Positions 16,199 to 24,414 of a DNA stretch of 64,000 nucleotides are shown here, piece by piece. The notes beneath the pieces are model-generated. The model saw only the letters and a list, made by a program, of their open reading frames with translations. It searched no databases and was not told the origin of the DNA. The position numbers and the translations under genes were made by a program. Every line of letters begins with the position of its first letter. The first letter of the stretch is position 1. The stretch is from Gimesia fumaroli (lineage in GTDB: Bacteria; Planctomycetota; Planctomycetia; Planctomycetales; Planctomycetaceae), in contig NZ_CP037452.1 of assembly GCF_007754425.1 (NCBI RefSeq), positions 744,001 through 808,000 on the forward strand, in the 5' to 3' direction.

Positions 16199-16750
16199 TC
16201 AACGTGCAATGAAATGATCGACTTGACGAATTTGATTTACAGCAACACTCTCGATACAGGCTTGAATCGCTCGCTCGGACTGCTTTCCCCAACTTCGCCA
16301 GTCGCCAAATTTCAGATCGAAGATACGGTTCCAGGAGTCTTCCATTATTTTGCGAGTGAATTTTCCTGACTCAAGCAATTCATCGTGATTATCAGACTCT
16401 CTTCTGTTTTCGGCAAGAAAGTTCTGATTTAAAACTGCGTGCCACAATTCAAATTGTGATAACAGGACATGCGCTTCATTAACTTCTAACTCAACTCGCA
16501 CGCCTGGTGTGCCTTGGGGAAGATGCCCGCTCCAGCGTAAGTCAGGTCGCTGATGTCTTTCAAAATATTTGTACCAGGCAAATGTAGGGCATCGTTCCGG
16601 GTTGGTACCAATCCGATCAGCCATTTGTTGTGCCATCCATTTGTAGTGCGGTCGAAAATCATGCTTCACTCGCGAGTAAGAGGCAAATTTTTTCTTCTTT
16701 GACCTCAGATCCTGTAACCAGCCTTCTGTTTGAATCGTCCATAATTGCAT
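16199..16750 (-). CDS. DUF3841-domain protein
   Basis: A 183-residue cytoplasmic protein of the DUF3841 family, recognised from MQLWTIQTEGWLQDLRSK at the start, then HYKWMAQQMADRIG, CPTFAWYKYF and VRVELEVNEAHVLLSQFELWHAVLN. No function is known. I start at the ATG at 16750, with AAGG about eight bases upstream, one codon inside a TTG alternative. It begins 29 bases after the stop of the second metal permease on the same strand and could be read from the importer transcript; nothing in the protein suggests a metal role. Confidence 0.78.
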   Translation of the reverse strand: MQLWTIQTEGWLQDLRSKKKKFASYSRVKHDFRPHYKWMAQQMADRIGTNPERCPTFAWYKYFERHQRPDLRWSGHLPQGTPGVRVELEVNEAHVLLSQFELWHAVLNQNFLAENRRESDNHDELLESGKFTRKIMEDSWNRIFDLKFGDWRSWGKQSERAIQACIESVAVNQIRQVDHFIAR

Positions 16751-16779
16751 CAACAGAACCTTTTCAGAAATTCGAAAGA

Positions 16780-18108
16780 TTAATGAACTTTGTCTTCGGG
16801 GGGAATCGGGCGGCCGTGCGGGTCCTGGTCAGTGTCGAGGGTGTCTTCGTTCAGCTTTTCACGCAGTTGACGGTCGGTGAAGTGTTCGAGTTTTTCAGCC
16901 TGCTTATGGATGTTTTCGGCTGTCATGCCCGCATGTTCGACGAGGTAGTGTTCCCAGAGGCGATGCGAGCGGACGAGTTGACGGGCCATGTCGCGGCCGG
17001 TTTCCGTTAATTCATAAGTGCCGTTGGTGTCCTTGATCTGTCCCTGTTTTGAGAGGTAGCGCAGGGTGAGCTGCGTCGGAACAGGGCGCGAGAACAGAAT
17101 GTCGCGCAGATCGTTGACATCTGGTTTTTGCTGGGGATCGCGTTCTTCGATGCGGTACATGAGTGCGATGATATCTTCGGCGAGGATTTTCCAGGCGAGA
17201 ATCTGGCGACGGACAAAGATGATCATGATCCCGTGCCGGGGACCAAACAGAGCCGCGAAAACGAACAGCATGCCAGAGGCGACGGCCATCATGCCAGCGG
17301 TCGACGTGCTATGATATCCAAACCAGCGGGGGACGGTGATGGCACTGATGTGCCCGGTGACGGCAGCGAAAATCGCCAGGACGACGCTGAGGACAATCAT
17401 ACTACCCAGCCGATCCGTCAGCATATAGGCGGCAGCCGGAGGTACGACAAACATGGCGACCACCAGAATATTTCCGACAGTTTCAAAACTCGCAACGGCG
17501 GTGATGGCCACCAGGGTCATTAGGGTATAGTGGATGATTGTAGCATTAAAGCCGGTCGTGGTGGCAAGTGCCGGGTCGAACGAACTGAGTTTGAGTTCTT
17601 TGAGAAAGCAGACGACGAACAGCAGATTAATTAATAGAACCACCGAGAGCACCGCAACGACGCGCGGAATTTCCCAACCCGCAATCAGGATCGTATCGAG
17701 GGGGGTGAGTTCAATTGCCCCGTAGAGAACGCAGCCTGGATCGAGGTCAACATGGTCGGCGGCTTGCACGATCATCACCAGTCCCAGAGCGAACAGTGAC
17801 GTAAACACGACTCCCATTGAGGCGCCTTCATCGACTTTGCCGAAGCCTCGAATCCACTCGGTAAACAGGGCGGTCAGGATTCCGGCAATTACGGCACCAA
17901 CAAACATGGGCAGACTGCTGCGACTGTCGCTGATCATAAAGGCGGCTGCCAGGCCGGGGAGAATCGCGTGTGTGATCGCATCTCCGAGCATACTCATTTT
18001 TCTTAAAACCAGAAAATTGCCCAGTAGAGCCGTTGAGGCAGCGCACAGAATTCCCGCAACAATAATCCAGCCATCCAGAAACCAGTTCCAGTTTTCCAGT
18101 CCCCCCAT
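16780..18108 (-). CDS. Metal ABC permease fused to a DtxR/MntR-like C-terminal domain
   Basis: A 442-residue fusion. Residues 10-300 are an ABC-3 (ZnuB/MntB/TroC) permease with about eight membrane segments and the family start LVLRKMSMLGDAITHAILPGLA. Residues 305-440 resemble DtxR/MntR: a winged-helix part (EDIIALMYRIEE; LTLRYLSKQGQIKDTNGTYELTETG) and a dimerisation/metal helix (SHRLWEHYLVEHAG; HKQAEKLEHF). By alignment with Bacillus MntR, D312, H382, E405, E408 and H409 match metal ligands D8, H77, E99, E102 and H103; E11 is replaced by Ala. So metal sensing is possible, and DNA binding from the membrane is conceivable. Its ATG overlaps the stop of the other permease. Confidence 0.88.
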   Translation of the reverse strand: MGGLENWNWFLDGWIIVAGILCAASTALLGNFLVLRKMSMLGDAITHAILPGLAAAFMISDSRSSLPMFVGAVIAGILTALFTEWIRGFGKVDEGASMGVVFTSLFALGLVMIVQAADHVDLDPGCVLYGAIELTPLDTILIAGWEIPRVVAVLSVVLLINLLFVVCFLKELKLSSFDPALATTTGFNATIIHYTLMTLVAITAVASFETVGNILVVAMFVVPPAAAYMLTDRLGSMIVLSVVLAIFAAVTGHISAITVPRWFGYHSTSTAGMMAVASGMLFVFAALFGPRHGIMIIFVRRQILAWKILAEDIIALMYRIEERDPQQKPDVNDLRDILFSRPVPTQLTLRYLSKQGQIKDTNGTYELTETGRDMARQLVRSHRLWEHYLVEHAGMTAENIHKQAEKLEHFTDRQLREKLNEDTLDTDQDPHGRPIPPEDKVH

Positions 18109-19619
18109 CAGGTTGCCCTCCGTGTACCTGAATGGTGACTGTTGGCTTGTTCCTGCTGGATCTCGATTTCATGCGGGCTTTGCAGGACTCCTGCGGTCGA
18201 CTGACGAACGAGCAGCGTTTCCAGTTCGGCAATGACTTCCGGTTCTAAAACGTGTTCGATGGCATCGGCATCCTGATCGACCTTGCTGGCTGCGACGTCA
18301 GCGTATGTGATCAGGTAGAGTTCCCACAAACGATGTTCGTGAACAATGCGTGCCGCTTCCAGAAGACCGGCTTTGGTCAATCGGATTTGATCTGCCTCCA
18401 GGGAGACGACTAACTGGTCCCGTTGCGCCCGATTCGCGATTTTTTTCAGCTTGGCTGGTGACCAGCTTCGCATTTTCAATAACGTGGACATGGGGACGAA
18501 CGTGGATTCTACAGTCTGTTTTTCGTTGATTCGCCCCTGCGATTCCAGAGTTTCATAAATGCCGCGCAGCAGGTGTTGTCGATTGACTTTTGTGTTCAGC
18601 TCATGCCGTCGCAGTTTGCGAATCAGGATGCCGCGGGGAATACCGAAGACCATGCTGAAGAGAAACATGGCGGTCGCGACGAGTACAATCATCGCTCCTG
18701 AAGGAAGGTTCGGGAAGATGGCACTCATGGCTGAGCCGATCATTCCACTGAGGGCTCCTAATATGACGGCGACGACCGTCATGTTGACGATCTTTTCTGT
18801 CCAGAAGCGGGCAGCTGCGGGGGGGATGACGAGCAGGGATATCATCAAAATCAGTCCAACGGCCTGCAGGCCGATGATCGTGACGACGACGACCAGGCCC
18901 ATTAAGAGCATGTCCAGCAGTACCACCGGAAAGCCGCGCGCATGGGCGAAGCCTTCATCAAAACAGAGCAGCGTCAGTTCCTTATACAACAGAATGGAAA
19001 TCAGCATGCAGGTTAGGCCCGCGGAGCCGATGAGCCAGGCGTCGCTGGCGACCATAGAAGCGGTCTTTCCATAAATAAACGATTCGAGGCCGGCGGCGTG
19101 GCCGGTCTGCATCTGTTGGACGATGCCCAGGAGAGCAATCCCGGCGCCAAAGAAAACGCTGAGCACAATTCCTAATGCAGCGTCTTCTTTTAAGCGAGTC
19201 AGGTTGCGAATCAAGAGAATGCCCCCGATTCCAAGCAAGCCGCTGACGGCGGCACCTGTTAAGAGAATCGGCAGCGATTTCCCGTTCAAGCCCAAAGAGG
19301 TGGCGATGATAAAGGCGATGGCGATGCCGGGCAGGGTGGCATGGCTGAGGGCGTCTCCCATCAGAGCCCGCTTGCGTAATAATGCAAAGCTGCCGATCAT
19401 GCCGGCGGACATGCCGAGCAGTGTGGTGCCGAGGATGACGATGCGGGTGTTGTAATCCTGCAGCAGGAACACACGCTTCCAGTCTTCCCATTGTGGAACC
19501 GCAATACTTCGATCGGTGATCGATTTTTGAGTCTGGATTTCGTTCGAGTTAGTGGCCGCGAGAACAAAACAGTTTGGCCAGAGACTGAGAAAGAGAAACA
19601 CCAGCGCGAACGCCCTCAT
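18108..19619 (-). CDS. Metal ABC permease with DtxR-like C-terminal domain
   Basis: A 503-residue ABC-3 permease. A signal-like N-terminal segment (MRAFALVFLFLSLWPNCFVLA) and a linker come before the transport region at about 58-335 (SFALLRKRALMGDALSHATLPGIA; GLQAVGLILMISLLVIPPAAARFW). Residues 345-475 form a weaker DtxR-like domain: RLTKAGLLEAARIVHEHRL and DADAIEHVLEPEVIAELE. H429, E455 and H456 align with MntR H77, E102 and H103, and D452 stands in for E99. The gene overlaps the ATPase gene by four bases and the second permease by one, so the three are translationally coupled. Two unlike permeases suggest a heterodimeric channel. Confidence 0.86.
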   Translation of the reverse strand: MRAFALVFLFLSLWPNCFVLAATNSNEIQTQKSITDRSIAVPQWEDWKRVFLLQDYNTRIVILGTTLLGMSAGMIGSFALLRKRALMGDALSHATLPGIAIAFIIATSLGLNGKSLPILLTGAAVSGLLGIGGILLIRNLTRLKEDAALGIVLSVFFGAGIALLGIVQQMQTGHAAGLESFIYGKTASMVASDAWLIGSAGLTCMLISILLYKELTLLCFDEGFAHARGFPVVLLDMLLMGLVVVVTIIGLQAVGLILMISLLVIPPAAARFWTEKIVNMTVVAVILGALSGMIGSAMSAIFPNLPSGAMIVLVATAMFLFSMVFGIPRGILIRKLRRHELNTKVNRQHLLRGIYETLESQGRINEKQTVESTFVPMSTLLKMRSWSPAKLKKIANRAQRDQLVVSLEADQIRLTKAGLLEAARIVHEHRLWELYLITYADVAASKVDQDADAIEHVLEPEVIAELETLLVRQSTAGVLQSPHEIEIQQEQANSHHSGTRRAT

Positions 19620-20431
19620 AGCGACTGCTCCCGGCGTCGCATGGTTTCGGTGGCTTCTTCGAGCAGTGTCAGCCGACCGCCATAGGTTTTTTGAAGATTC
19701 TCCGGTGTGAAGACGTCTGCCGTCAGTCCATGATCGATGACCCGCATGTTGAGCAGAATTACATAATCGAAATATTCCGGCACCGTCTGCAGGTCGTGGT
19801 GAATGACGAGTGCCGTTTTTCCGGCTTGTTTCATTTCCTGTAAAATCTGCACGATGGCTTTTTCAGTGGCGGCATCGACGGCGGCGAACGGTTCGTCCAT
19901 CAGATACAGGTCGGCATTCTGAACCAGGGCGCGGGCCAGGAAGGTGCGCTGCTGTTGGCCGCCGGAAAGCTGGCTGATCTGCCGATGGGCATAGTCGGCG
20001 ATTCCCACGCGTTCGAGTGCTTCCATGGCGCGGGTGCGATGTTTTTTGCGGACGGGAAGACACCAGCCAATTTCTTTGTATAGACCCATCGTCACGACAT
20101 CAAGGGCATTCACGGGGAAGTCCCAGTCGACGCTTTCGCGTTGAGGCACGTAGCCGACCCGGTGCCGGTTCTTCTGATAGGGTTTGCCGAAAATCTGGAC
20201 GCGTCCCGACGCCTTGGGAATGAGGCCCATGATGGCTTTGATTAATGTACTTTTGCCGGCCCCGTTCGGTCCAACGATGCCGACGAGTTTTCCCGGAGGA
20301 ATGTCGAAGCTCACGTCCCAGATCACAGGTTTACGGTGATAGGCCACCGTTAAGTCATACACCGAGAGGGGAGTTGTTGTGGGGGACAATTCAGACGGTG
20401 ACTCAGCGGCGACGCTTTCTCTTGTATTCAT
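19616..20431 (-). CDS. Metal ABC transporter ATP-binding protein
   Basis: A 271-residue ATPase that drives the metal importer. Walker A is GPNGAGKS at 54-61, the signature LSGGQQQRTFLARAL is near residue 157, and Walker B is LYLMDEPFAAVD. VGYVPQRESVDWDFPVNALDVVTMGLY near residues 92-118 is the Q-loop region typical of Mn/Zn/Fe (MntB/ZnuC/TroB) ATPases. It overlaps the first permease by four bases and lies 105 bases downstream of the binding-protein gene. Confidence 0.93.
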   Translation of the reverse strand: MNTRESVAAESPSELSPTTTPLSVYDLTVAYHRKPVIWDVSFDIPPGKLVGIVGPNGAGKSTLIKAIMGLIPKASGRVQIFGKPYQKNRHRVGYVPQRESVDWDFPVNALDVVTMGLYKEIGWCLPVRKKHRTRAMEALERVGIADYAHRQISQLSGGQQQRTFLARALVQNADLYLMDEPFAAVDAATEKAIVQILQEMKQAGKTALVIHHDLQTVPEYFDYVILLNMRVIDHGLTADVFTPENLQKTYGGRLTLLEEATETMRRREQSL

Positions 20432-20536
20432 AAGTCCGGTTTTACTTCATCAAATGATTGAGCGAAATAAGTTCCTCGCAAGTATAGCAGCTTCGATTGA
20501 ATTGCGCAGTTTGCTAATGTGTGTTGTCTGTTTTGA

Positions 20537-21532
20537 TTAGTGAATCAGCTTGCCTTGCATCCCTTTTTCCGGCGCTGTTCCTCCCAGGGCACGTGCGACG
20601 GTGGTGAAGTTGTGATCCAGCATGCCGGTATAGGTGCCCTCGTATGTGCCTGATTCGCCCATCGCATCGGAAAACAGTTCGCCACCGATGATGATGTCGT
20701 GGCCTTGTGCTTTGGCACCGTCAATCAGGGCGGTGATGTTCTTTTTGGAGACACTGCTTTCGACAAACACCGCTTTGATATTTTTCTTGACCAGCATGTC
20801 CACGAGTTGATTAATGCGTTTCAAGCCCGCTTCGGATTCGGTTGAGATTCCCTGAACGCCTTGAACATCCAGGCCGTAAGCACGACCGAAATAATTGAAA
20901 GCATCGTGAGAAGTGATCAGGGTGCGGCTCGCTTCCGGAATGGACTGCATGGTTTTCAAACCGTACTGGTGCAGCTGCTCTAACTCGTTTTTGTATTCTG
21001 CAGCATTCTTCTGATAAACGTCGGCATGTTTGGGATCGACCTTACACAGGGCATCTTTCACGGCATCCACACATTGAGACCAGGCAGATACGTCCATCCA
21101 GACGTGCGGGTCATAGTGCCCGTTGAAGTCTTCCGGTTCGAGCAGGGTTTTTTCATCGATTAATTCCGTCACGGCAAACACCGGTTTATTGCGCGAGACT
21201 TTGATCAGCGTGTCCGTCATCTTGCCTTCCAGCATCAGTCCGGAATAAAAGACAATATCAGCATTCATAATGGTCTGCACATCGTCGCGGCTGGCTTTGT
21301 GCATGTGGGGATCGACGCCCGACCCCATAATCTGCGTAACGGTCACATATTCGCGGCCTACATTTTTGACGAGGTCCGCCACCATGCCGACGGTTGCCGC
21401 GACCGGAATCGGGTATTTGAGCTCGATTTCCGATTGCTTCTGGTCAGTGGTATTGTCAGTGGTAGAACCATCTTTTTGCTGGCAGCCGACAAGAAAACTC
21501 AATAGCAGGGTGAAAGCAAGCAGCTTTCTCAT
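20537..21532 (-). CDS. Metal-binding lipoprotein of an ABC importer, Mn/Fe type
   Basis: A 331-residue cluster A-I solute-binding protein. I start at MRKLLAF because GGGAGA lies upstream and this gives a clean lipoprotein signal ending LVGC (Cys17); the frame is open 16 codons further. Likely ligands are H76 (GVDPHMH), H143 (HYDPHVWMD), E232 (ISTESEAG) and D289 (ELFSDAMG), the His-His-Glu-Asp set of PsaA/TroA/MntA. The long His-rich loop of ZnuA is missing, so manganese or ferrous iron is more likely than zinc. It is the first gene of the operon, just downstream of a 12-bp inverted repeat. Confidence 0.9.
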   Translation of the reverse strand: MRKLLAFTLLLSFLVGCQQKDGSTTDNTTDQKQSEIELKYPIPVAATVGMVADLVKNVGREYVTVTQIMGSGVDPHMHKASRDDVQTIMNADIVFYSGLMLEGKMTDTLIKVSRNKPVFAVTELIDEKTLLEPEDFNGHYDPHVWMDVSAWSQCVDAVKDALCKVDPKHADVYQKNAAEYKNELEQLHQYGLKTMQSIPEASRTLITSHDAFNYFGRAYGLDVQGVQGISTESEAGLKRINQLVDMLVKKNIKAVFVESSVSKKNITALIDGAKAQGHDIIIGGELFSDAMGESGTYEGTYTGMLDHNFTTVARALGGTAPEKGMQGKLIH

Positions 21533-21566
21533 TCTTTGTCTCCCATCAGGGGCAATTGATAAATAT

Positions 21567-21592
21567 CTAAATGTAGCCAAGGCTACATTTAG
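21567..21592 (-). promoter_or_regulatory. 12-bp inverted repeat, candidate metal-repressor operator
   Basis: Arms CTAAATGTAGCC (21567-21578) and GGCTACATTTAG (21581-21592) are exact reverse complements separated by AA. It ends 35 bases upstream of the binding-protein ATG, where an operator over the promoter is expected. Size and symmetry suit a DtxR/MntR dimer pair, though the sequence is not the classic MntR or DtxR box. As RNA it could also fold into a hairpin. A free-standing repressor is not in the window; the only DtxR-like domains are those fused to the permeases. Confidence 0.65.
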
Positions 21593-21642
21593 CTTTATTT
21601 TAACAGAGTCTGACCTGCTGTCAACTCCAGTGACCTGTGAGA

Positions 21643-24414
21643 TCAGGGTTTCAGGTAGTGGTCGAAGAATTCGATGACGGCAGGCCTGAGGTCCTGTTGT
21701 TTCGGTTGCAGGTGAAAGCTGTGAGGAGCGCCCTTGATGATCAATAATTCAGTGGGGATATTTCCCTGTTTGAGCGAGGCGGCCAGGAGTTCGGACTGTT
21801 CAACGGGAACGAGCGCGTCTTTCGTCCCATGTAGAATGAGGAACGGGGGATCATCTTTCGAGATGTGGTTCACCGCGGATGCCTGACGACTGAGTTCTTT
21901 TTCTGCCTCTGTGAAGGAAGAGAGCATTTCGCGTGACTTCGCCAGTGCGATCAGATCATGCGCGCCGTACATGGGGACGACAGCCTGAATGCGTGAGGAA
22001 AAGTCGGCGTATGGTGCATCGGGTTCAAGTTGGGGATCATCGCCGGTCACAGCCAGCATGGCGACCAGATGACCGCCGGCAGAACCGCCGATGGCGCCGA
22101 TGTATTCGGCGTCGACTTGATATTGGTCAGCGTGTTTTCTCAAATAGCGGACAGCAGTTTTGCAGTCCTGTAGATGGCCGGGCCAGACCTGCTTGAGATT
22201 GTCTGTGAACCTGGCTTGTTTCTTTGCCAGTTGGTAGTTGATGCTGGCACAGACGTAACCCGCTTTTGCGAGATTCGTGCCGATGTTGATTTCACGACGG
22301 GCGCCCTTGTCTCCGCCATGCCAACCGCCGCCATGTATGATGACGATCGCAGGGTAAGGACCTTTCTGATAAGTGGGGTCCGGCAGATAGAGGTCCAGTT
22401 TTTCTTTGCGATCCTCACCCAGGTAGCTGACGTCTTTTTTAACGGTGATATGAGAGAGTTCCTGTTTCACGCGTTCGCTGGGTTCGATGAACGTCACTTT
22501 GTCCAGTCCTGCCAGTGCCACGAGATCTTTGATGTCGAATTCCTTGAGCAGTCCGAAGCAGAACAGTTCGGGGGCCTGGCTGACCGCTTTGTCTTGTTCG
22601 AGGATCTCTTTGAGTGAACCGAAGGAGTTCTGCAGACTGATGCCGTTGATCGTCTCAGGTTCGATTGCTGCTGCAACGAGGGTGAAGAGACTACTGCGGG
22701 GACCTGTCGCCTGAATTTGAACAGTCGATTGTCCCTGATCTTGCTTTAACCATTGTGCGATGCCGGTGAGCTGATCGGCTTGGATGCCAAGCGGTCGTTC
22801 TCCGACGGCAGCAACCAGCAGCCCGTAGAGAAAATCGCGCTGGCTGATTTTGGATTCGCCGAAATAAAACGGATCGACGGCGAGTACATTTTCTCCCTTT
22901 GAGAGAAGTGTTTCCACGGTTGCCGCAAGACTCTGGCGGCCGGCGTCGGCAACGACGATGGTCGTCGATTTCGCAGGCTTGCGTGAAAACTGGACGGCGG
23001 GAACGGTCCAGTCTTTGTCGACGTTCAGTTTCCAGAACGTGACAGTGGTGTTGTCCTGTGTTTTCTGGCTGACTTCGGTTCCGGTGACTTTTGCTGGTGC
23101 GGAATGTACGATTTTTTTGAGCGACTCCCGTCGTTTTTCTGGAGAGGTGTTTTTTGCCGGGCGTGGCAGGTTCTGACTGAGTTTCAGTGCCAGGCTGTGA
23201 AAGTCGGCGTTGTTGGCAGGCAGTTCCACTTCGAGTTCTTTGGCAGTGTAGAGTTCGTCTTCACAGGCGATTTCTTTGACTGGCAGCGGTTTGCCCGGAT
23301 CGGAAAAATGAGCCGAGAGCATGCGATAGAGGGCTTCGCGGTTGTCTTTGAGAAAGTTATGGGTACCAGGGTCATCATTGATGTGTTTCTGCAGGTTGTT
23401 TTCTTTGTCGTATAATTTGAAGATCGGAAAAGCTGCCTTGAGTAGCGGTGGCTGGGCGTAGCCCGATTCGAAGCAGCAGTTGTCTTTGGAATTGTTGGTC
23501 AGCAATGTCGGACGGGGGGCCCGCATTGCGGTAAGGTGAGTGTAGTCTGCGTAGAGGGCGAGGTCGTTGGGTGTCTGTTCGGAATCCCCCAGGTCTTTTG
23601 TATGATAAATGCGTGTCTGAAAACTGGAATAACCGGCGACGGGATTAGAGAGTGTGACGCGTTCGTCCAGCGAACTGATGAAGATGGTTTGCCAGCCTCC
23701 GCCGGATAGACCGGCGACGGCGACTCGGTCTGGGTCTGCGTTCGGATGTGAGAGCAGGACATCGAGTCCCTTTTTCATCGCGAGATAAAACGGCGCCAGT
23801 CCACTCGTGCCACACAGGTCGAGCTGATTCATTTTGTAGTGCGTGAACCCGGGAGTATTCAACTGCCCCATGCCCAGCCATTCGACATTGAGCGCGAGCA
23901 TACCCCGTTGGGCCTGGTTGATGCAGCGGATCTGTTTGTAGTCCGCTGCTTTGCCGTCTTTGCGGTCATGGCCGTTAACATTCATCACCACGGGGACTTT
24001 GCCCGTCAGTTCTTTTGGAAGATAGAGCAGGGCAGGCACCCATAATCCGGGCAGCGCTTCAAATCGCAGTTTTTGGATATTGTATCCGGGGCTGCCTTTA
24101 ATCGTTTCGAGCCAGACGACATTCAGTTTGGTGTCGCGCCATTTGGCGGCTTCGCCTCGGTACACAACTTTATTTAAAACGTTTTTGCGAGTGCGTTCGG
24201 CAGTTTTTTCCCATTCGGCGACACTGCTGACTTCGGGCATGCCAGGAACTTTGGGGGCGATGAAAGCCTGGACTTCTTTCCAGGGCTGATCTTTTTCCAG
24301 GATCGGTTCTGCCAGCCAGGTTTTCAGGTTGGGTTCGGCTGCAGTTGCTGTTGAAAGGGACAGGGCAAGCAGGCAGCAGAGGACGAGGGAACGATTCAAC
24401 AGTTGGCTGGGCAT
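21643..24414 (-). CDS. Exported multi-domain alpha/beta hydrolase (esterase-like)
   Basis: A 923-residue secreted protein (signal MPSQLLNRSLVLCCLLALSL, then STATAA). Residues about 70-380 form an acetylxylan-esterase-like hydrolase with nucleophile S237 in GLSGGGW and a likely His in GTHNF. Residues about 400-650 look like a second hydrolase lobe with no G-x-S-x-G elbow (TGPRSS instead). Residues 672-923 form a BD-FAE/carboxylesterase domain with the oxyanion motif HGGGWHGGD at 694, S778 (GGSAGG), D866 and H898. It probably removes ester groups from plant or algal polysaccharides; the substrate is inferred. It converges on nothing and may be its own unit. Confidence 0.85.
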   Translation of the reverse strand: MPSQLLNRSLVLCCLLALSLSTATAAEPNLKTWLAEPILEKDQPWKEVQAFIAPKVPGMPEVSSVAEWEKTAERTRKNVLNKVVYRGEAAKWRDTKLNVVWLETIKGSPGYNIQKLRFEALPGLWVPALLYLPKELTGKVPVVMNVNGHDRKDGKAADYKQIRCINQAQRGMLALNVEWLGMGQLNTPGFTHYKMNQLDLCGTSGLAPFYLAMKKGLDVLLSHPNADPDRVAVAGLSGGGWQTIFISSLDERVTLSNPVAGYSSFQTRIYHTKDLGDSEQTPNDLALYADYTHLTAMRAPRPTLLTNNSKDNCCFESGYAQPPLLKAAFPIFKLYDKENNLQKHINDDPGTHNFLKDNREALYRMLSAHFSDPGKPLPVKEIACEDELYTAKELEVELPANNADFHSLALKLSQNLPRPAKNTSPEKRRESLKKIVHSAPAKVTGTEVSQKTQDNTTVTFWKLNVDKDWTVPAVQFSRKPAKSTTIVVADAGRQSLAATVETLLSKGENVLAVDPFYFGESKISQRDFLYGLLVAAVGERPLGIQADQLTGIAQWLKQDQGQSTVQIQATGPRSSLFTLVAAAIEPETINGISLQNSFGSLKEILEQDKAVSQAPELFCFGLLKEFDIKDLVALAGLDKVTFIEPSERVKQELSHITVKKDVSYLGEDRKEKLDLYLPDPTYQKGPYPAIVIIHGGGWHGGDKGARREINIGTNLAKAGYVCASINYQLAKKQARFTDNLKQVWPGHLQDCKTAVRYLRKHADQYQVDAEYIGAIGGSAGGHLVAMLAVTGDDPQLEPDAPYADFSSRIQAVVPMYGAHDLIALAKSREMLSSFTEAEKELSRQASAVNHISKDDPPFLILHGTKDALVPVEQSELLAASLKQGNIPTELLIIKGAPHSFHLQPKQQDLRPAVIEFFDHYLKP

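Follow-up and report, generated by a model that had tools for sequence, protein, structure and literature searches.

We analysed a 64,000-nucleotide stretch of Gimesia fumaroli DNA (contig NZ_CP037452.1 of assembly GCF_007754425.1, positions 744,001 to 808,000 of the forward strand), called the window below, which contains an operon for a metal importer of the ATP-binding cassette (ABC) type. Both permeases of the importer, P0001 and P0002, were confirmed to end in a DtxR-family domain. As judged from sequence comparison, the DNA-binding half of these domains, a helix-turn-helix (HTH) region, is under relaxed constraint, and the metal-binding half is fully constrained. We lean, with some reserve, towards paired cytosolic metal sensors that act by feedback on an importer of the manganese type (possibly manganese and iron), rather than repressors; gating of the transporter is deduced. 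The permeases and their tails are located as follows.

16780..18108, minus strand: P0001, the second permease, 442 amino acids (aa); ABC-3 domain at residues 15-288, DtxR-like tail at about 303-441
16783..17205, minus strand: DtxR-like tail of P0001, residues 302-442; Fe_dep_repr_C (PF02742) at 368-436 with 73.5 bits, fold match with Z about 19; helix 1 with D312, HTH and wing at 328-372, metal-binding and dimerisation domain at 373-436
18108..19619, minus strand: P0002, the first permease, 503 aa; ABC-3 domain at residues 57-325, DtxR-like tail at about 340-474
18198..18602, minus strand: DtxR-like tail of P0002, residues 340-474, identified by Fe_dep_repr_C (415-470, 45.7 bits), alignment and the substitution ratios given below; HTH and wing at 368-419, metal-binding domain at 420-474 with H429, E433, D448, D452, E455 and H456

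The original prediction, made from the sequence of the window, had described two unlike ABC-3 permeases with DtxR-like tails, and the profile searches on the two adjacent genes agree with it. The ABC-3 domains score 146.6 bits in P0001 and 201.1 bits in P0002 (cut-off 20.1), and the proposed search with hidden Markov models of the DtxR family placed Fe_dep_repr_C above its cut-off of 27 in both tails. Structure prediction, also proposed there, upheld the fold well for P0001 and weakly for P0002. The AlphaFold model of P0001 has a mean predicted local distance difference test score (pLDDT) of 93.6 and a predicted template modelling score (pTM) of 0.86; for P0002 the values are 87.2 and 0.82. 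The last ~140 residues of P0001 superpose on IdeR, DtxR and MntR-type chains with VIA Z of 14.6-19.5 over 117-138 aligned residues, and its channel part superposes on PsaBC (7kyp) with Z of 31.4 over 268 residues. The channel of P0002 is modelled well, but its tail matches DtxR chains weakly (best E 7.8e-3, root-mean-square deviation about 5 A). By PF02742 and the DtxR fold together both tails belong to the DtxR metal-binding and dimerisation domains, P0002 with the weaker fold match.

For comparison, 141 loci were fetched by similarity to P0001 with near-duplicates kept (e.g. L042/L103, L067/L169, L149/L150), so that shares among them are no random survey. The scanned set of 162 fused tails comprises 75 of the 81 tails of first permeases, 59 of the 65 of second permeases and 28 of the 33 from loci with a single fused permease in view; near-duplicates, the first permeases of three split loci (L090-L092), L111 and L169 were omitted. 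The set of 48 free DtxR-family regulators consists of 46 of the 57 genes listed near these loci and the two of G. fumaroli. Omitted were near-duplicates (L059, L061), over-long or double reading frames (L073, L085, L086, L120, L149 and the second of L075), the cut end of a permease (L113) and, without good reason, L121 and L153. A profile of the 59 second-permease tails matches DtxR-family chains across helix 1, the HTH region and the metal domain; the source of the fusion was therefore an entire two-domain regulator. The tryptophan of the motif HRLWE is typical of fused tails (160 of 162, vs 6 of 48 free proteins). Within the genus, 17 genomes including that of G. fumaroli were compared; their synonymous divergence (pS) is high, 0.55-0.73.

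The N-terminal HTH domain of DtxR-type repressors, Fe_dep_repress (PF01325), has no match in P0001 or P0002 at E up to 1, and it is clear in the two free DtxR-family genes of the same genome (49.8 and 48.5 bits). At E up to 0.01 it was found in 2/75 first-permease, 0/59 second-permease and 3/28 single tails, as opposed to all 48 free proteins, a set collected with whole-regulator profiles and hence biased toward HTH-bearing genes. PF02742 was found in 71/75, 59/59 and 28/28 tails of the same groups (158/162) and in 48/48 free proteins. The mean pairwise identity of the HTH is 0.226, 0.194 and 0.190 in the three fused groups vs 0.340 in the free set; for the metal domain it is 0.433, 0.446 and 0.499 vs 0.391. 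The same pattern is seen within the genus in the ratio of nonsynonymous to synonymous divergence (pN/pS). In the HTH this ratio is 0.29 for P0001 and 0.47 for P0002 (17 genomes), vs 0.04 for the free MntR and 0.07 for the free DtxR (15 genomes each). In the metal domain it is 0.11, 0.10, 0.11 and 0.05, respectively. The stretch from helix 1 to the residue corresponding to G371 is shortened to 48 residues or fewer in 9/59 second-permease and 2/75 first-permease tails, and in 0/28 single tails and 0/48 free proteins. The HTH helices are almost gone in the second permeases of L047, L048, L050, L052 and L053, which keep the HRLWE, AE.LEH-type and DPHG.PIP motifs.

The candidate metal ligands are retained. 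All residues named in the original prediction, D312, H382, E405, E408 and H409 of P0001 and H429, D452, E455 and H456 of P0002, are present, and none of them varies among the 17 genomes. The same is true of E386, H401, D429 and H431 in P0001 (nine positions checked) and of H349, E433 and D448 in P0002 (seven checked). Three of these are candidates absent from the earlier list: H349, which occupies the place of MntR D8, and E386 and H401, which we take to be the ancillary-site positions of DtxR. The correspondence of tail positions to the numbered ligands of DtxR and MntR is in part assumed from general knowledge of the family. Among the 59 diverse second-permease tails D312 is kept in 52, H382, E386 and H401 in 55 each, E405 in 34, and E408 and H409 in all. 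The ligand sets differ by permease, DHEHEEH being found in 34 of these 59 tails and HHEDDEH, the commonest set there, in 39 of 75 first-permease tails.

If the tails are sensors, each half of the heterodimeric channel would bear a cytosolic domain derived from a DtxR/MntR regulator that kept metal binding and dimerisation and lost DNA binding. The tails are placed in the cytosol because of the homology of the channel and the arginines and lysines that follow the last membrane helix. There they would most likely read metal that has already reached the cytosol, and they may pair beneath the channel in a pseudo-symmetric manner. The metal-filled pair would then restrain the transporter as a product-feedback brake, by analogy with MetNI and ModBC, whose domains are unrelated. 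The more specific proposal, in which a repressor was captured by the transporter as an allosteric feedback sensor and the DtxR-derived pair shuts the importer from inside, is put forward tentatively, at a little below an even chance. Activation of transport by metal would look identical to inhibition at the sequence level. As the two sites have diverged, one being D-type and the other H/D-type, they may have separate roles, in setting the threshold and the selectivity, respectively or the reverse. Since the HTH is relaxed in two separate proteins and the metal site is fixed, many members of the family may be regulators of transport.

One possibility is that the tails do no gating and serve as cytosolic acceptors, which receive the imported ion at the channel and deliver it elsewhere. 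Such a hand-off would agree with conserved metal ligands beside the channel exit and with the different ligand sets of the two permeases. However, elsewhere the DtxR fold is, from general knowledge of the family, a fold for sensing and dimerisation, and the constraint covers the whole metal-binding and dimerisation domain beyond the ligands. No chaperone partner was found, although no search was aimed at one. We consider hand-off unlikely.

The remaining evidence comes from the operon and its regulators. Upstream of P0002, on the same strand, are the other genes of the importer and its candidate control region.

19616..20431, minus strand: P0003, ATPase subunit of the metal ABC importer type (PF00005, 116.4 bits)
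20537..21532, minus strand: P0004, substrate-binding lipoprotein of the ZnuA family (PF01297, 259.6 bits)
21567..21592, minus strand: candidate operator, the 26-bp palindrome CTAAATGTAGCCTTGGCTACATTTAG, a probable MntR box with its core kept across the genus
21597..21624, minus strand: sigma-70-like promoter TTGACA-16-TAAAAT, matching 11/12 positions and ending 4 bases ahead of the palindrome

By open reading frames and Pfam this is a four-gene operon in which neighbouring genes overlap or are 105 bases apart. PF00950, PF00005 and PF01297 are all above cut-off, as in Mn/Zn/Fe ABC importers; with the NCBIfam model of manganese/iron ABC ATPases P0003 scores 222 bits, under the cut-off of 393. 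The start of P0004 is set at the ATG at 21532, not at the TTG at 21580, because the palindrome covers the TTG and the ATG gives a protein of 331 aa, like those of L035 and L036. The promoter pattern occurs once in 16500-21700, where 3.2 occurrences are expected by chance; its TTGACA is kept in three congeners. P0002 starts (19449-19619, minus strand) with a stretch that resembles a signal peptide, and a segment modelled with low confidence follows ahead of the first helix of the channel, which is odd for a permease.

The window has no separate DtxR gene, as the original prediction stated, and this holds for PF02742. The survey for free genes that it suggested found two elsewhere in the genome: one encodes a DtxR of 230 aa that includes a FeoA domain, the other an MntR of 138 aa. 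The latter scores 163.9 bits with NCBIfam NF008273 (cut-off 153); its closest solved relative is 2h09, with 93.8 bits, whereas DtxR, SloR and similar proteins reach 26-34 bits. We take NF008273 and 2h09 to stand for E. coli MntR. The free MntR is above the NF008273 cut-off in 15 of the 17 genomes of the genus. Of the remaining two, G207 is 99% complete and has a fragment of 74 bits, and in G208, which is 74% complete, only the permease tail matched.

The core of the palindrome, WTGTAGCN4GCTACAW, is present in all 17 genomes, with exactly three sites in twelve, one in three incomplete genomes, and five or six in two. The reversed pattern, used as a control, is absent from 13 genomes and has one to three sites in the other four. 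In every genome one core site lies 2.08-2.16 kb ahead of the first permease. In the wider set TAGCN4GCTA was observed upstream in 21 of the 112 loci that show the gene of the binding protein (near-duplicates counted), vs 0.55 expected from mononucleotide shuffles. With seven near-duplicates dropped, it precedes the operon in 10/21 loci with an MntR-type neighbour and in 2/31 with a DtxR-type one (p 0.0015). The palindrome also fits the pattern of a terminator; an operator is favoured because the sequence is the same across the genus, lies directly behind a promoter and has paired copies before another gene. It presumably resembles the E. coli MntR box. A separate soluble MntR probably switches the importer genes, by putative binding to this conserved operator.

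Two tandem copies of this palindrome (G000:C1:6830225-6830270) precede a prepilin-like gene with DUF1559 (PF07596), followed by a small lipoprotein (L184 4099-5196, minus strand). The DUF1559 gene follows the pair in six of the seven fetched loci that show it, the exception being L198. It would be unusual for an MntR regulon of two targets to contain a surface protein. In two congeners an additional pair of boxes, at G201:C1:7028201-7028858 and in G205 (C2 and C12), is found beside an extra DtxR-like gene that scores 53-55 bits with NF008273, under the cut-off.

These observations bear on the known precedent. In Chlamydia the C-terminal 139 residues of the permease YtgC, named YtgR, are described as being cleaved off to form an iron-dependent repressor (PMC5599777, PMC7755916, PMC6504234). 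Here, likewise, one or both tails may be cleaved or held at the membrane, bind DNA with metal and repress the operon. The precedent is direct, the model of P0001 shows the whole DtxR plan with the HTH included, and P0002 retains a conserved RSW motif. On the other hand, the HTH signature is left in just 5/162 fused tails, the HTH pN/pS exceeds the values of the free regulators 4- to 12-fold, and the HTH stretch is shortened in 11/162 tails. Moreover, a free MntR is already available for the operon, as is a conserved palindrome, while in Chlamydia, as far as those accounts go, YtgR alone has been identified as an iron-dependent regulator. A repressor of this type is quite improbable here. The original prediction had offered two roles, sensing of cytoplasmic metal with gating of the transporter and binding of DNA from the membrane. 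In this genome the former is favoured, with gating as its inferred part, and the latter made less likely by the conserved metal site, by the HTH with its lost signature and rapid evolution, and by the separate MntR with its conserved operator; DNA binding from the membrane is also set back by the contrasts in Pfam matches, identity and pN/pS.

The dimerisation domain, retained without the HTH signature, may also act as a decoy that forms pairs with free DtxR/MntR subunits and holds them to the membrane depending on the state of transport. A free DtxR-family gene is indeed present in the fetched flank of 52 of the 120 fusion loci. However, the free MntR that fits the operator is, by the scores given above, of a different subfamily from the tails, a free gene is not seen at many loci, though the flanks are short, and the interaction of tail and regulator is putative. 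We regard a decoy as very doubtful.

With P0001 as the query 129/199 genomes of the phylum match at E up to 0.001, many by the channel or the tail alone. Among the 141 loci both permeases are fused in 59, the first only in 22 and the second only in 6; a single fused permease is in view in 33, and 21 have no fusion (15 with two unfused permeases, 6 with one). Six of the 33 single loci (L049, L054, L055, L090-L092) together make up three split pairs. Named fused loci include members of Planctomycetota, Verrucomicrobiota, Latescibacterota, Omnitrophota and Bacteroidota. FeoA is matched as well in 11 of the 28 tails of the single group, e.g. weakly at 454-500 of L079. One branch of the domain tree (support 91) separates the 162 fused domains from the 48 free ones; a single origin is weakly evidenced by it, because the alignment has 70 columns for 210 rows and the fused tails share the HRLWE residues. 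A FastTree phylogeny of the permeases, with 228 rows, requires at least 21 changes of the fused state, and the fusion has therefore been gained and lost frequently. That the domain is a relic that merely stabilises the permease is highly improbable: unfused relatives exist at those 21 loci and the ligands have decayed in the family L057-L061, but the ligand positions are invariant in the genus despite its synonymous divergence and are retained in most of the 162 diverse tails.

Several observations weigh against paired feedback sensors. In 28/141 loci only one of the two permeases has the domain, so that an internal pair within one transporter is impossible in some loci and is not required everywhere; a strict rule of two domains per transporter was rejected on these counts. 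The HTH of P0001 is modelled by AlphaFold at high confidence, i.e. as folded, the mean net charge of the HTH in fused tails is still positive, the RSW motif of P0002 is kept in 17/17 genomes of the genus, and the collection bias of the free set bears on the HTH contrast. P0002 carries H and D at positions where most manganese sensors have D and E, and its helix 1, which bears H349, is looser (pN/pS 0.21) than that of P0001 (0.07). The loss of ligands, e.g. in L057-L061, counts here too. At one mismatch the box is not enriched by count in the genome of G. fumaroli (4 sites vs 6 of the reversed control); with no mismatch there are 3 vs 1. Some relatives show the opposite loss, a short winged-helix-like tail without the metal domain: the second permeases of L062, L063, L064, L065, L071 and L073, both permeases of L158, L205 (Deinococcus deserti) and L206 (Paracoccus aestuarii), with Pfam support that is weak and under cut-offs. 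Finally, transport, metal binding and complex formation are deduced from sequence.

Fusions of permeases and DtxR-type domains have so far been read through Chlamydia, as repressors awaiting cleavage. If the paired feedback sensors are real, they would provide the Mn/Zn/Fe importer family with a module for transinhibition, and how such importers avoid metal overload would become directly testable. Apart from YtgCR, a literature search revealed no description of a regulatory domain in this importer family, most subscription journals being outside its coverage. Within the same coverage, double-permease fusions and decay of the HTH were likewise not found described in titles and beginnings of abstracts.

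The closest known system is YtgCR of Chlamydia trachomatis (CT069/CTL0325, ytgABCD), an ABC-3 permease with a C-terminal DtxR-like domain, whose operon, as described, also encodes a metal-binding protein, an ATPase and a second permease. Since fusions of permease and repressor have in addition been identified in 11 phyla, according to the review PMC5599777, the arrangement is of an already known kind, and the original prediction, which considered the role of these fusions unestablished, overlooked YtgCR, whose tail is reported to be cleaved off and to repress genes. Unlike in G. fumaroli, where both permeases are fused and the HTH is decaying, one permease is fused in the published description of YtgCR, and its tail is cleaved and represses. 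Moreover, the accounts cited (PMC5599777, PMC7755916, PMC6504234) identify no iron-dependent regulator in Chlamydia besides YtgR, whereas free MntR and DtxR genes are present here. With the free regulators DtxR, MntR, IdeR, ScaR and SloR the tails share the fold, the metal-binding domain and, in P0001, D312, H382, E405, E408 and H409; they differ in the missing Fe_dep_repress match, the relaxed HTH, the fusion to a membrane channel and the tryptophan of HRLWE. The channel parts resemble those of the manganese and zinc importers PsaBC and ZnuBC (sequence matches to 7kyp, 7kyo and 9oko), but the permease chains of both these importers, of 260-290 residues, match the channel part only and have no regulatory tail. 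Each half of MetNI and ModBC bears a cytosolic domain that senses the substrate brought in and causes transinhibition, as outlined in the review PMC10710835, in the text of which neither DtxR nor YtgC appears. This is a working analogy only: their domains are on the ATPase subunits, have other folds and are not relatives, whereas in G. fumaroli domains with metal ligands are on both channel subunits.

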